NCBI RefSeq assembly: GCF_001457435.1
Contig: NZ_LN881717.1
Coordinates: 567,896-631,895 of the forward strand
DNA from: Actinobaculum massiliense
GTDB lineage: Bacteria > Actinomycetota > Actinomycetes > Actinomycetales > Actinomycetaceae
DNA length: 64,000 nucleotides
Reading direction: 5' to 3'
The position numbers were made by a program, and so were the translations under genes. Positions 46,484 through 51,953 of this stretch are shown piece by piece. Position 1 is the first letter of the stretch. Each line of letters starts with the position of its first letter. The notes under the pieces were generated by a model, which worked only from the letters and a program-made list of their open reading frames with translations, had not been told where the DNA came from and made no database searches.

Positions 46484-46516
46484 AGAGGCAGTTATTCATC
46501 GTTCGAAAGGAATCGG

Positions 46517-46606
46517 ATGGCTCGCGCTCTTGCCATGATGACCGCCATGTCCATGTACATGGCGAACATGCGCATGCGCTCCGAGCTTGCTCCCGAAGAC
46601 CTTTAG
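46517..46606 (+). CDS. Met-rich leader peptide of the methionine importer operon (29 aa)
   Basis: A 29-codon ORF with eight Met codons (positions 1, 7, 8, 11, 13, 15, 18, 20), beginning MARALAMMTAMSMYMANMRM. GAAAGGA lies six bases before the ATG. Its TAG is 20 bases before an intrinsic terminator, beyond which lies metN. Bases 46585-46588 (GCTT) and 46592-46595 (CCCG) in its last third can pair with the terminator's 5' arm at 46627-46634. A ribosome stalled at Met codons would leave these free and prevent termination; one reaching the stop would cover them. I infer a methionine-sensing attenuation leader. The peptide itself probably has no other role. Confidence 0.75.
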   Translation: MARALAMMTAMSMYMANMRMRSELAPEDL

Positions 46607-46626
46607 AGAACTAACCAACGTAGAGG

Positions 46627-46653
46627 CGGGAAGCGAGCGGCTTCCCGTTTTTT
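46627..46653 (+). terminator. Intrinsic terminator (attenuator) before metN
   Basis: CGGGAAGC (46627-46634), loop GAGCG, GCTTCCCG (46640-46647), then six T. A textbook Rho-independent terminator, placed between the Met-rich ORF and metN. Confidence 0.9.
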
Positions 46654-46700
46654 ATTGGGTTGCCGGCCGTCTGTTTTCACCGAGAACGCGGCACTTGCTT

Positions 46701-46734
46701 CCAGCTCCTGCGCAAAGATCAAAGAAAGAGCTGG
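46701..46734 (+). promoter_or_regulatory. Hairpin over the metN ribosome binding site
   Basis: CCAGCTC (46701-46707) pairs perfectly with GAGCTGG (46728-46734), ending one base before the ATG at 46736. The purine-rich AAAGAAAGAG that must serve as ribosome binding site lies in the loop and 3' arm, so the fold could lower metN translation. Confidence 0.5.
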
Positions 46735-46735
46735 A

Positions 46736-47875
46736 ATGTCATCCACATCTTCACTCGAGAATCCGGAGGGTTCGCTCAGCGAACTAACCCCCGGCCTCTC
46801 CCCCGAAGAGGACCCGAACTTCCCGATTATTAAGCTAGAGAACATCACGAAGATCTTTAGCGCCGGGAAAACAAGTAGCGTCCTCGCCGTCAAAGACGTC
46901 AGCCTCGATATTTATCGCGGCGATATCTTCGGAATTATCGGATTCTCCGGAGCCGGAAAATCCACCCTCGTACGTTGCATCAACCTGCTGGAACGCCCCA
47001 CAAAGGGAACCGTGACGGTGCGCGGAAAAGACCTCACGCGCCTACCGGCCTCCAAGCTACGCGCCGAGCGCACGAAGATCGGCATGATTTTCCAGCACTT
47101 CAATCTTCTCCCCTCACGCACGATCGCGGAGAATGTGGCCTACCCGCTTGCCGGCTCGGGCCTTTCTAAGAAGAAGATCAAGGCAAAGGTTGCCCGCCTC
47201 CTCGATTTGGTAGGAATTGCGGATAAAGCTGACGCTCACCCGGGTGAGCTCTCCGGCGGCCAAAAGCAGCGCGTCGCTATTGCCCGCGCTCTGGCCAATG
47301 ATCCGGAGATCCTGCTCTGCGACGAGGCCACCTCCGCCCTCGATCCGCAAACAACCCAATCAATTCTTGATCTTCTGCGCGATTTGCAAAAGCGCCTCGA
47401 CCTCACCGTCGTCGTCATTACCCATGAGATGGCGGTAGTCAAGGAAATCTGCAACCGCATCGCGGTGATGGAGAACGGCGAAGTGGTGGAAGAGGGCGAT
47501 ATCCTCAGCGTCTTCACCAATCCGCAACAGGAAGTCACGCAAAACTTCATTCGCTCTACCTCCCCACTCACCAAGGCCAATCGGCTGATTGAGGAAGGCT
47601 CCCCGGTGGTGGACCTCGAGCCGGGCGAACTCATTGTGCGCCTCAGCTACCGCGAGCAACGCGTTTCCGAGCCGCTGATTTCGGGAATTTCTCGCCGCTT
47701 TGGCGTCAATCTCAACATTATTTCTGCCGATGTACAGATCGTGAATGGTTCGCCGGTGGGCGGCATTGTGGCGATCGTTTCCGGCCCCGAACGCGATGTT
47801 GCCAACGCGCTCGGTTACTTCAAGGACAACAACGTCGGAACGGAGGTGCTCAAAGATGCACGACTTCCTCGTTAG
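46736..47875 (+). CDS. metN: Methionine ABC transporter ATPase
   Basis: 379 residues. An N-terminal extension of about 25 residues precedes the ABC domain: Walker A GFSGAGKST (about 69), Q-loop FQHFNLLPSRT, signature LSGGQKQRVAIARAL, Walker B ILLCDEATSALD. A C-terminal NIL domain (about 298-375, FGVNLNIISADVQIVNGSPV) is the methionine-binding domain that gives trans-inhibition in MetN. It drives import of L- or D-methionine with MetI and MetQ. The gene follows a Met-rich leader and terminator; its ATG has only a weak purine tract upstream, inside a hairpin. metI overlaps its 3' end by 20 bases. Confidence 0.93.
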   Translation: MSSTSSLENPEGSLSELTPGLSPEEDPNFPIIKLENITKIFSAGKTSSVLAVKDVSLDIYRGDIFGIIGFSGAGKSTLVRCINLLERPTKGTVTVRGKDLTRLPASKLRAERTKIGMIFQHFNLLPSRTIAENVAYPLAGSGLSKKKIKAKVARLLDLVGIADKADAHPGELSGGQKQRVAIARALANDPEILLCDEATSALDPQTTQSILDLLRDLQKRLDLTVVVITHEMAVVKEICNRIAVMENGEVVEEGDILSVFTNPQQEVTQNFIRSTSPLTKANRLIEEGSPVVDLEPGELIVRLSYREQRVSEPLISGISRRFGVNLNIISADVQIVNGSPVGGIVAIVSGPERDVANALGYFKDNNVGTEVLKDARLPR

Positions 47876-48539
47876 CTTCATCCCCAACGTGATGGATCGG
47901 CTCCCCGAGTTCTACCAGTCGATTATTGACACCATCGTTATGACGGTGTGGTCCGGGGCGGTTTCGTTTATTTTGGGTCTGATCTTCGGAATTCTTCTGG
48001 TGGTCACCAAGCCGGGCGGCATTTTGCAAAACGGCCCGGTCTTCCAGACGGTTGACAAGGTGACGAACATTTTCCGTTCCATCCCCTTTATCGTTTTGCT
48101 CACCGCCGTGATGCCTCTGTCTCGCCTCATTATGGACACCGGCATCGGGGTGAAAGGCGCGATCGTTCCGCTCGTTTTCGGATGCACGCCGTTCTTCACG
48201 CGCCAGGTGGAAAGCGCGCTCTCGCAGGTTGATTCCGGCCTAGTCGAAGCCGCCCAGGCAATGGGCAAAAGCTCGCCGGACATTATCTGGAACGTCTACC
48301 TCAAGGAATCAATTGCTCCGCTAGCTCGGGCAACCACCATCACCACAATTTCACTCATTGGCCTCACGGCCATGGCCGGCGCGGTCGGCGCGGGCGGTCT
48401 GGGTAACTTCGCTATCCAGTACGGCCACGACCGCAACATGCTCGACGTCACCTGGGTCACCGTTTTGGTGCTCATCATTATGGTCTCGTTCGTGCAGATC
48501 CTGGGTAATCACATTGCCCGCAAGAACACTTGGAAATAA
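47856..48539 (+). CDS. metI: Methionine ABC transporter permease
   Basis: 227 residues with five membrane helices (about 22-45, 62-85, 90-112, 150-172, 193-215). The ATPase-docking loop is around GLVEAAQAMGKSSPDIIWNVYL. The pattern SFILGLIFGILLVVTKPGGI is typical of MetI. ATG 47856 lies inside the end of metN with GGAGGTG seven bases upstream, so translation is coupled. It forms the membrane channel as a dimer. Confidence 0.93.
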   Translation: MHDFLVSFIPNVMDRLPEFYQSIIDTIVMTVWSGAVSFILGLIFGILLVVTKPGGILQNGPVFQTVDKVTNIFRSIPFIVLLTAVMPLSRLIMDTGIGVKGAIVPLVFGCTPFFTRQVESALSQVDSGLVEAAQAMGKSSPDIIWNVYLKESIAPLARATTITTISLIGLTAMAGAVGAGGLGNFAIQYGHDRNMLDVTWVTVLVLIIMVSFVQILGNHIARKNTWK

Positions 48540-48603: not shown

Positions 48604-49569
48604 ATGAGCACTTCTATAAAGGCTCGCAAAGTTGCCATTATTGGCGCTGGGCACGTTGGCTCGCACGTTGGCTATGCGCTGGGAACCCAGGGCTTGGCCT
48701 CCGAGGTTATTTACATCGACCCACCCGCTCCCGAAAAGGCCAGTGCGCAGGCGCTTGATTTGCAGGATGCCGTTTCCTACCTACCCGCTCACACCGTTTT
48801 CCGCGCCGGCACCTACGCCGATATTTCCGATGCGGCCATCGTGGTGATCGCCGCCGGCCCGTTGCCCGATTATGAGAAGGGCGAGCGTGACCGGTTGGAT
48901 ACCTTGCCCGCCACTGTCGCGGTGGTGGACGACGTTGTTGCCGGGCTGGCCGAATCGGGCTTCTCGGGGATTATCGTGACGATCTCCAACCCCGCGGATG
49001 TCATTGCTAACTACATTGCCGAAAAGTTGGACTGGCCGCGGCGGCGAATTCTTTCCACCGGCACCGGCTTGGATTCGGCGCGGTTGCGCCGCGCCATTGG
49101 CGTGGCGCTGGGCGTCGAACAGAAATCAGTGAACGCTTACATGCTCGGTGAGCACGGGGAAAACCAGTTCGCCGGGTGGTCGCGGGTTACGGTTGGCGGC
49201 ATTCCGCTGACAACCTACCTGGGCGATGATAGCGATTTCGACTACGCGGGTATTGAGGACGCGGCGCGCTCAGCGGGATGGACGATTCTTTGCGGCAAGG
49301 GCTCCACGGAGTTTGGCATCGCCACCACCACCGCGCAGATTGTGCGGGCGATTCTCGACGACGAACGCGCGCTACTTCCGGTTTCTGCCTACCTGGACGG
49401 CGAATACGGGGAAAGCGGAATTTACGCTTCGGTCCCCGCACAACTCGGAGCTGAGGGGGTGATTGCCGTTCCCGAACTGCCGCTTTCCGACGATGAGCAG
49501 AAGCTCTTTGCGGATTGCGCCAGCCAACTCCACGCGAATTTCGAGAAGGCTCTAGAGCTCGGCCGCTAG
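48604..49569 (+). CDS. L-lactate/L-2-hydroxyacid dehydrogenase family (2-hydroxyisocaproate dehydrogenase-like)
   Basis: 321 residues. NAD-binding IIGAGHVGSHVGYAL (about 12-26), ISNPADV, GTGLDSARLRRAIG (Asp157, Arg160) and the proton-relay His184 in GEHGENQFAGWS mark the LDH family. The substrate loop AGPLPDYEKGERDRLD differs from the compact AGxxQKPGExRL of true lactate dehydrogenases, suggesting a bulkier 2-oxo acid. It lies between metI and metQ with its own AAAGGA. I infer that it may reduce 4-methylthio-2-oxobutyrate, the methionine keto acid; ordinary lactate activity cannot be excluded. Confidence 0.82.
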   Translation: MSTSIKARKVAIIGAGHVGSHVGYALGTQGLASEVIYIDPPAPEKASAQALDLQDAVSYLPAHTVFRAGTYADISDAAIVVIAAGPLPDYEKGERDRLDTLPATVAVVDDVVAGLAESGFSGIIVTISNPADVIANYIAEKLDWPRRRILSTGTGLDSARLRRAIGVALGVEQKSVNAYMLGEHGENQFAGWSRVTVGGIPLTTYLGDDSDFDYAGIEDAARSAGWTILCGKGSTEFGIATTTAQIVRAILDDERALLPVSAYLDGEYGESGIYASVPAQLGAEGVIAVPELPLSDDEQKLFADCASQLHANFEKALELGR

Positions 49570-49685: not shown

Positions 49686-50555
49686 ATGAAACTCCGCAAG
49701 ACTCTTACCGCCACTTTGGCGGCACTCGCCCTGGCTCTCACCGCCTGCGGCGGCTCCGGCTCCACCGCCGGCTCGAATGGCGCCGAGGGCGGGAAGACCA
49801 CCGTCAAACTCGGCGTTGTGGGAGCGCTCTACGAAGACCTGTGGGAGCCCGCTAAGGAGAAGCTCGCCGGCGAAGGAATTGAGCTGAAGTTCCAGCAGTT
49901 CGCTGATTACGTCACTCCGAACAACGCACTCAATAATGGCGAGATTGACCTCAATGCTTTCCAACACGAGATCTTCCTCAACACCGACGTCGAACACAAT
50001 GGCTACAAGATTGAGACCGTCGGCTACACCTTCATCCTGCCGCTGAACCTTTACTCGCAGAAGATCAAGTCAGTTGACGAGATCAAGGACGGCGACAAGA
50101 TCGGCATTCCCGATGATCCGACCAATGGCGGACGCGCGCTGAAGGTGCTTGAGGCTGCCGGGCTCATCAAGCTGAAGTCCGATGCCGGATTCTCCCCCAC
50201 CGTGGCTGATATCGAGTCTTACAAGGTAAACATCAAGATCGAGGAACTGAAGGCGAACATTATTGCCTCCTCGCTGCCGGATCTGACCGCCGGCATCGTC
50301 AACGGTAACTACGCGCTGGACTTCAACCTCGATCCGCAGACCGCAATCTTCCAGGACTCCACCCTCAAGGATCGCGAGTACTGGAACATCGTGGCCGCCC
50401 GCACCGAAGATCTTTCGGATCCGGCCAAGAAGGAAACCTTCCAGAAGGTGGTTGAGGCCTTCCAAACCGATGAGACCTCGAACGTCCTGAAGGACAAGTA
50501 CCACTCCTACTTCATCCCGGTCGGCTGGGACGAAGATCCGCTCGCTGCCAAGTAA
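49686..50555 (+). CDS. metQ: Methionine-binding lipoprotein
   Basis: 289 residues. The signal peptide ends with lipobox ALTACGG (Cys about 22). The NlpA/MetQ fold follows: VKLGVVGALYEDLWEPAKEKL, the ligand-loop FQHEIFLNTD, IGIPDDPTNGGRALKVLEAAGLI, and PVGWDEDPLAAK near the end. It captures methionine for MetNI. ATG 49686 has GAAAGGA upstream. It is the last import gene of the cluster and is followed by a long hairpin. Confidence 0.93.
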   Translation: MKLRKTLTATLAALALALTACGGSGSTAGSNGAEGGKTTVKLGVVGALYEDLWEPAKEKLAGEGIELKFQQFADYVTPNNALNNGEIDLNAFQHEIFLNTDVEHNGYKIETVGYTFILPLNLYSQKIKSVDEIKDGDKIGIPDDPTNGGRALKVLEAAGLIKLKSDAGFSPTVADIESYKVNIKIEELKANIIASSLPDLTAGIVNGNYALDFNLDPQTAIFQDSTLKDREYWNIVAARTEDLSDPAKKETFQKVVEAFQTDETSNVLKDKYHSYFIPVGWDEDPLAAK

Positions 50556-50786: not shown

Positions 50787-51953
50787 ATGCCAGAGCTTTC
50801 CGCCAGAACAGCAACATTCACCGATTCCGTTATCCGCCGGATGACCCGCGTTTCCAGTAAGTACGGCGCGGTGAACCTATCGCAGGGATTCCCCGATTTC
50901 GATCCACCCGCGGCCATCACCAACCGCCTAGCCGAAGTTGCGCACGAGGACTTCCACCAGTACTCCACCACCTGGGGCGCACAGAATTTCCGCGAGGCGC
51001 TCGCCGCTAAACAGAGGCATTTCATGGGTATCGATGTGGATCCCGATACCGAAATCGTCACCACCTGCGGTTCCACCGAGGCAATGATGGCGGCGATGCT
51101 CACCGTCACCAACCCGGCCGATAAGGTGATCGTCTTTTCCCCGTTCTACGAAAACTACGGCGCGGACGCGATTCTCTCCGCCGCCGAACCAATTTATGTG
51201 CCGCTTCGCCCACCCGCTTTCAACTTTGACGAGCAGGAATTGGAGGCCGCCTTTGCCTCCGGAGCCCGGGCGCTTATTCTCTGCAATCCCTCCAACCCCA
51301 CCGGCAAGGTTTTTACCCGGGCCGAATTGGAGATTATCGCCAAGCTGGCCGAGCGCTACGACGCCTGGGTAATTACCGACGAAGTGTACGAGCATATTGT
51401 TTATGACGGACGCGAGCACATTTACTTCGCTACCCTGCCCGGCATGCGCCAGCGGACGATCTCCTGCTCCTCCCTTTCGAAGACCTATTCGATTACCGGG
51501 TGGCGCCTGGGATACACGATCGCGCCGCCACAGGTGACCGAGCGGATCAAAAAAGTGCACGATTTTTTGACCGTGGGAGCCGCCGCCCCCTTGCAGGAAG
51601 CGGTGATCCCGAGTTTGAAGTTCGACGACGCCTACTATCGCGAACTTCTGGCAACCTATTCGGCAAAGCGCGAGCTGTTCCTCGCGGGCCTGGATCGTGC
51701 TGGACTCACCTATGTTCGCCCCGAGGGCGCCTACTACGTTCTGGTCGATATTTCCGAGTGGGGATTCGCCTCCGACCTGGAGTTCTGTGAAGTTCTTGCG
51801 CGCGACGGCGGAGTTGGGGCCGTGCCTGGCTCCACCTTCTTCCGCGAACCCGTCAATCATTTGATTCGCTTCCACTTCGCGAAGAAGGATTCCACCCTTG
51901 AAGCGGCTCTGGATCGCCTAGCCCTTATCCGCGACAAAATTCCGACCCGCTAA
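50787..51953 (+). CDS. Class I PLP aminotransferase (methionine/kynurenine aminotransferase-like)
   Basis: 388 residues. NLSQGFPDFDPP at the N-terminus, LCNPSNPTGKVF, TDEVYEHIVYDG and SSLSKTYSITGWRLGY with Schiff-base Lys232 place it with the YbdL/kynurenine aminotransferase group, which accepts methionine and aromatic amino acids. It would convert methionine to 4-methylthio-2-oxobutyrate. AAGGAAG precedes the ATG. Location after metNIQ supports a methionine substrate, but that is inference. The FAD oxidase gene follows after 17 bases. Confidence 0.85.
   Translation: MPELSARTATFTDSVIRRMTRVSSKYGAVNLSQGFPDFDPPAAITNRLAEVAHEDFHQYSTTWGAQNFREALAAKQRHFMGIDVDPDTEIVTTCGSTEAMMAAMLTVTNPADKVIVFSPFYENYGADAILSAAEPIYVPLRPPAFNFDEQELEAAFASGARALILCNPSNPTGKVFTRAELEIIAKLAERYDAWVITDEVYEHIVYDGREHIYFATLPGMRQRTISCSSLSKTYSITGWRLGYTIAPPQVTERIKKVHDFLTVGAAAPLQEAVIPSLKFDDAYYRELLATYSAKRELFLAGLDRAGLTYVRPEGAYYVLVDISEWGFASDLEFCEVLARDGGVGAVPGSTFFREPVNHLIRFHFAKKDSTLEAALDRLALIRDKIPTR

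Follow-up and report, generated by a model that had tools for sequence, protein, structure and literature searches.

We identified a candidate methionine-sensing RNA switch upstream of metNIQ in the window, i.e., the whole 64-kb stretch of DNA that was analysed. With high confidence, we read it as a classical ribosome-mediated transcription attenuator that would sense charged elongator Met-tRNA and thereby control metNIQ, a reading based on sequence and RNA folding. Here, a predicted leader, i.e., a short ORF rich in Met codons and equipped with a ribosome binding site (RBS), lies directly 5' of the metN operon, and an intrinsic terminator is predicted between leader ORF and metN. The individual features are as follows.

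46506-46511, + strand: leader RBS (AAAGGA), 5 nt 5' of the ATG, from the sequence
46513-46524, + strand: putative protector segment in the ORF start region, from the minimum-energy fold
46517-46606, + strand: leader ORF MARALAMMTAMSMYMANMRMRSELAPEDL, 29 codons, stop codon TAG at 46604-46606, from the sequence
46535-46576, + strand: seven internal Met codons within 14 codons (codon count), the proposed stall sites
46585-46595, + strand: putative antiterminator strand GCUUGCUCCCG, within the ORF and 3' of the last Met codon, 11-bp pairing with 46627-46638
46627-46653, + strand: intrinsic terminator, perfect 8-bp stem, loop GAGCG and six T, from the sequence; -20.0 kcal/mol
46736-47875, + strand: metN, methionine ABC transporter ATPase; best NCBIfam match TIGR02314, 400.5 bits, below the curated cut-off of 499.7
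47856-48539, + strand: metI, permease; NF008049, 191.8 bits, below the cut-off of 212
48604-49569, + strand: L-lactate/2-hydroxyacid dehydrogenase-like gene between metI and metQ; TIGR01771, 290.8 bits, below the cut-off of 303.55
49686-50555, + strand: metQ, substrate-binding lipoprotein; NF008285, 192.3 bits, below the cut-off of 374

The positions that the initial annotation had given for the RBS, the 29-codon ORF, its eight Met codons, the terminator and the start of metN are exact to the base. The Met codons start at 46517, 46535, 46538, 46547, 46553, 46559, 46568 and 46574. Met (8/29) and Ala (6/29) are the commonest residues of the leader peptide, which has no Cys. The terminator stem (46627-46647) reads CGGGAAGC-GAGCG-GCTTCCCG and is followed by TTTTTT up to 46653; its 5' arm and loop also form the second strand of the antiterminator. 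An automatic terminator search had picked a longer hairpin for the window, which is wrong, and the 46627-46647 stem was used instead in all pairing tests. When the final 60 codons of every frame, up to its stop, were screened for at least five internal ATG within 14 codons, the only hits in the 64 kb were the leader and the antisense of the same CATG-rich stretch. That antisense frame (46492-46575, - strand) is likewise Met-rich because CATG is palindromic; it has no terminator.

The two stems are mutually exclusive. GCUUGCUCCCG (46585-46595) pairs with CGGG(A)AGCGAGC (46627-46638) over 11 bp with a one-base bulge, at -18.6 kcal/mol as a duplex. Including inner pairs, folding yields -22.2 kcal/mol for the antiterminator vs. 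-20.0 kcal/mol for the terminator. None of 500 shuffled versions of this segment pairs as strongly (z = -3.9, p = 0.002), and for the RNA 46500-46655 as a whole the fold has z = -4.33, with 0/200 shuffles equally good. The initial annotation had proposed a bulged pairing of GCTT and CCCG with CGGGAAGC. The positions are right and such pairing is possible, but it is the weaker form, and we rejected it as the main antiterminator because the 11-bp form with its one-base bulge is stronger.

We also folded the RNA left free downstream of a ribosome. If the free RNA includes 46585 onward, the antiterminator pairing is predicted; if it starts at 46594 or later, the antiterminator is predicted to be lost while the terminator remains. 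That is, the predicted antiterminator excludes the terminator, and its 5' strand lies just past the control codons, where a ribosome at the stop codon could reach it. Without a ribosome, the predicted fold pairs 46513-46516 with 46593-46596 and 46519-46524 with 46582-46587, which permits terminator formation; in this fold, 46600-46604 is paired with the RBS (46506-46510).

The following course of events is consistent with these folds. RNA polymerase would start 5' of the leader ORF. If charged Met-tRNA is plentiful, the ribosome would pass the Met cluster, reach the stop codon and mask 46585-46595, such that the terminator at 46627-46653 forms. If it is scarce, the ribosome would stall at a Met codon of the cluster and leave 46585-46595 free to pair with the 5' arm and loop of the terminator, and transcription would continue into metN. 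If no ribosome is present, the ORF start would pair with 46582-46596, with termination as the default. Stalling at Met codons, antiterminator formation and read-through into metN had been suggested by the initial annotation, and this appears to be the best-supported reading.

We surveyed the 800 nt 5' of metN at 145 loci, i.e., 80 general loci (the best listed), 30 loci of the window's family and 35 loci from two Clostridia sets, which comprise the metN nearest to the query (duplicates L081, L112-L117 and L132 omitted). A locus was scored if it had at least four internal ATG within 14 codons and an intrinsic terminator within 200 nt. Both were found at 26/145 loci, the window included, and the ORF alone at 29/145; one of these 29, L031, seems to be the tail of a preceding gene. 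The 26 loci are distributed as follows: 11/14 in the set from the order of Agathobaculum, 7/21 in the Lachnospiraceae set (the family of Lachnoclostridium phytofermentans), 3/30 in the window's family and 5/80 in the general set. The latter include the betaproteobacterium Parasutterella secunda (L018), which fits more poorly. Outside these 26, further leaders were recognised by eye at L084, L086 (three internal Met), L125, L140, L099 and L104. Among the matches listed, the closest metN outside the family is that of Agathobaculum (64%), followed mostly by Clostridia, with Treponema third. Close metN (E <= 1e-95) are rare in the Clostridia searched (14/345 and 22/348 genomes).

Dinucleotide shuffling (20 rounds) gave the ORF at 1.25 loci on average (maximum 4) and ORF plus terminator at 0.25 (maximum 2). 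The reverse-strand control yielded five loci (L044, L052, L057, L123, L130), with the hits at L123 and L130 antisense to leaders. When at least five Met and a terminator within 150 nt were demanded, 21 of the 145 regions 5' of metN scored (115 kb in all, read on one strand). Elsewhere in these loci (1.109 Mb, counting both strands) there is a single match, the leader of G079, which stands at the head of another metN operon.

Next to the presence of both parts, we evaluated their pairing. At every locus, we paired the segment 3' of the last Met codon with the 5' arm and loop of that locus' terminator and set the result against 500 shuffles of the segment; L085, where the terminator arm overlaps the ORF end, was excluded. 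The own arm is paired at p<0.05 in 11/25 testable loci (mean z -1.8). The combined Fisher p of 2e-12 treats related loci as independent and is too small because the loci are related. In a cross-locus control, the own segment beats all 24 others in 10/25 loci, where one is expected. Pairing is not individually significant in 14/25 loci and no better than in shuffles for L001, L004, L040, L121, L122 and L138; the strand complementary to the arm is located 3' of the leader stop in L118 and L018. L086, added later to this test, has p = 0.014.

Leaders of different loci do not align, and the ORF strand changes together with both terminator arms from locus to locus. The ORF strand of L126 is identical to the 3' arm of that locus' terminator (AAGGAUGACC); at L123 and L124 the two agree except for a wobble difference. 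In partition-function folding, the average sequestration of the 5' arm is 0.73 with the ribosome on the Met codons vs. 0.26 with the ribosome on the stop codon, and it is higher in the stalled state in 23/25 loci, a contrast that is trivial in part, given the smaller amount of free RNA. When the post-Met segment is shuffled, sequestration in the stalled state averages 0.59 (0.64 in the highest of 20 rounds).

Within the family we searched 213 genomes from 36 genera, with one further genome (G001) from the window's genus. The four metN closest to that of the window (G001, G073, G072 and G069; 55-73% identity) each have, 5' of the gene, a small ORF that is equipped with an RBS and in which Met codons are clustered. 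G001, whose metN is 73% identical, encodes the leader MQHTLPLAMPLALASAMMMPGMLMCAHPASVKHSRM with six Met in 16 codons; leader and terminator are unlike those of the window. Its ORF contains a stretch of nine bases, CATCCCGCT, that is perfectly complementary to the terminator arm AGCGGGATG (p = 0.020). In G069 (leader MISKHLLSMMRRMFSSRTVSIRRSSGFVLASYRARF), CUCCCGGACCG can pair with CGGUUCGGGAG (p = 0.014). The leaders of G073 (MACWFAARACGSATPSMMRMHMMCMLMRVR) and G072 (MACWFAANARGSLMPPMMSMCMMMLMR) are similar to each other; the remaining ones differ throughout. In G072, the end of the leader (last codons and stop) and the terminator 5' arm overlap; a ribosome held up at the last Met codons would therefore mask the arm directly. 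G073 has the same hairpin without the T tract.

In another genus, G078 and G079 have a leader of the form MTPM(H/Y)MSMCMCCRR... with a terminator; that of G079 precedes an M20-type amidohydrolase-like gene (read by eye) that reaches up to metN. Of the 30 family loci, five have a Met-rich leader directly 5' of metN, three of them scored automatically, and two have one at the head of the operon. In 20 further family places we looked for a leader with at least four Met at the operon head; 18 have none, and only G078 and G079 have one; a three-Met frame with a hairpin in G140 was taken as chance. Across the phylum (396 genomes), one metN besides that of the window reaches E <= 1e-88 (G983, 48% identity), and no such leader is present within its 1.5-kb flank. 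The initial annotation had staked its proposal on Met codons and alternative pairing being conserved in relatives. Both recur there without sequence conservation, and the proposal holds in this respect. We further observed Met/Cys leaders with a terminator farther 5' of metN at L099/L154 (G079), L104/L155 (G078) and L131 (second copy of G213); at L131, by eye, an amidohydrolase gene again stands between leader and metN.

With regard to the sensed amino acid, 44/180 residues other than Met within the Met clusters are Cys, and 20/26 leaders have at least one there (e.g., L124, L126, L133 and L149); sensing of both sulfur amino acids may therefore be common among the relatives. It is thus possible, if doubtful, that the leader class as a whole responds to a general shortage of Met and Cys rather than to Met alone, with only Met kept in the window. 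The leader of L149 (Lachnospiraceae set), where Cys outnumbers Met (8 vs. 6), is in line with this, while the window's leader, dominated by Met and Ala and devoid of Cys, argues for methionine alone.

Next, we consider known RNA elements. In the window, no Rfam covariance model of a SAM riboswitch or T-box matches, and both were rejected as the window's element for this reason; the only match is sroE (E 0.18, 17.6 bits vs. a gathering score of 51). In a sample of 70 of the 145 loci that we selected (mostly Firmicutes), SAM riboswitches or T-boxes are found at 0/28 loci with a Met-rich ORF vs. 16/42 others (Fisher p = 8e-5). Within the 35 loci of the Clostridia sets this contrast is uninformative (0/19 vs. 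1/16). Among 19 further family loci, 17 of them leaderless, there is one SAM riboswitch (L105). A match to RAGATH-18 RNA was seen just 5' of metN at L144 (2575-2636, - strand), a genome of the Lachnospiraceae set.

The missing Rfam family in the window bears on ribosome-independent or translation-level control, in which a protein, a small RNA or Rho would act via the hairpins and the Met codons would be incidental. Such control would fit the loci without T tract (L084, L140) and the weak terminator of L018. We nevertheless regard it as quite unlikely, given that a Met cluster followed by a terminator occurs at 26 loci vs. 0.25 in shuffles.

At 17/26 loci, promoter-like sites (at least 10/12 matches) are present no more than 150 nt 5' of the Met cluster. 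Between terminator and metN, where the stretches are mostly shorter and those longer than 30 nt were scanned, the best promoter match is 8/12. At 13/26 loci, metN starts less than 60 nt behind the T tract, which leaves scarcely any space for a separate metN promoter. In the window, a consensus scan found no sigma-70 promoter (best 6/12). Met/Cys-rich peptides are similar to copper(I) ligands, and the ORF could thus encode a functional peptide of, e.g., copper(I)-binding type, with the terminator ending a small mRNA and metN using its own promoter. We consider this very unlikely: besides the short gaps and poor promoter matches, the peptides of distant loci have little in common beyond Met and Cys, and the alternative stems would be purposeless. 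Pure chance, i.e., a Met-rich frame arising from CATG palindromes beside an ordinary terminator, would explain why the antisense strand (46492-46575) reads equally Met-rich, but it is contradicted by the shuffle, other-DNA and cross-locus controls as well as the recurrence in relatives and has a negligible probability.

Transcription attenuation at Met codons thus remains our preferred reading, and it is not without precedent. The initial annotation knew of no described methionine example; this has to be corrected, since Met leaders were already proposed in Campylobacter (PMC3847290, PMC11955535) and Streptomyces (PMC8079986). Attenuation is proposed for Campylobacter jejuni MetL, which precedes metBA and whose short RNA terminates just past the stop codon (PMC3847290), and Ribo-seq gives a translation start signal for metL (PMC11955535). 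A further Met-rich ORF, CJsORF19, stands before Cj0772c, a D-methionine transport binding-protein gene (PMC11955535). The window's leader resembles both in being a short ORF with Met codons 5' of methionine genes (PMC3847290, PMC11955535). In contrast, MetL comprises 20 aa with three Met codons, precedes biosynthesis genes and was found by its authors in C. jejuni, C. coli and C. doylei only (PMC3847290), and the accessible text notes no antiterminator for the C. jejuni leaders (PMC3847290, PMC11955535).

Closer in position is metL of Streptomyces lividans, a predicted leader before metNIQ of an actinomycete (PMC8079986). Its printed peptide MSTTSDRTPATEATTTPGARCMCRRMCAF has three Met including the start; metL is leaderless and has no typical Rho-independent terminator, with termination called 'unclear' (PMC8079986). 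The actinobacterial trp, leu, ilv and cys leaders likewise encode peptides rich in the regulated amino acid, though for other amino acids, and classical attenuators were predicted for trp, trpS and leuS (PMC1262725). The same 2005 survey of Actinobacteria reports no conserved RNA structure 5' of methionine operons (PMC1262725); a 2010 survey of premature terminators mentions a T-box before a methionine transporter (PMC2965389). SAM-I riboswitch (RF00162) and T-box (RF00230) share with the window the site 5' of metN and the regulation of the same gene by a 5' leader RNA; they differ by having no Met-rich ORF and are absent from the 28 leader loci and the window.

A search by title and abstract, with subscription papers mostly outside its reach, found neither a Met leader in Clostridia nor a complete Met attenuator. 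As far as this search reached, the complete mechanism, the Clostridia family and the frequent Cys codons are new, and the window's attenuator looks like a member of an apparently new, wide leader family.

With regard to origin, we computed a tree of 97 metN proteins by a quick method. Window and G001 fall into a set of 16 rows (SH-aLRT 95) that contains mainly Clostridia together with G069, G072 and G073; the remaining family loci of the tree (L087-L111) are placed elsewhere. Transfer of the metN operon from Clostridia, probably along with its attenuator control, would be the simplest reading of this tree. At least 14 changes of leader state are required on the tree, with labels that include six by-eye loci (L084, L086, L125 and L140 as well as the operon-head leaders L099 and L104).

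The recipient genus is likely auxotrophic for methionine, judged from gene content. Among 11 genomes searched, full-length MetE is present in 7/7 other family members (E <= 2.1e-137) and absent in the window's genome (G000) and G001, which have only a distant Meth_synt_2 match that passes the Pfam cut-off (E 2.9e-14 and 5.2e-11). The Met_synt_B12 domain of MetH is found in 0/9 genomes (G000, G001 and the seven other family members). The two genomes of the genus are 98.28% (G000) and 95% (G001) complete, and auxotrophy is therefore likely.

On balance, we favour the view of a large family of leader attenuators for sulfur amino acids (Met, mostly with Cys) over metNIQ-type operons in many Clostridia, which would replace the SAM riboswitch or T-box used elsewhere. 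It would have moved with its operon into the actinobacterial family, to a genus seemingly unable to make methionine, and would have been missed because neither peptide nor RNA sequence is kept. This points to a third RNA solution for metN beside SAM riboswitch and T-box, invisible to covariance-model libraries, and suggests that such switches move across phyla with their operons. Since the Met codon also starts nearly every protein, a stall sensor must separate elongation shortage from initiation failure, a question that becomes testable with a compact, complete attenuator for methionine found in nature.

Finally, a methionine-aminotransferase-like gene is located 3' of metQ (50787-51953; NF006569, 345 bits, cut-off 420). 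Given this gene and the dehydrogenase-like gene between metI and metQ, the operon may additionally use a hydroxy or oxo analogue of methionine.
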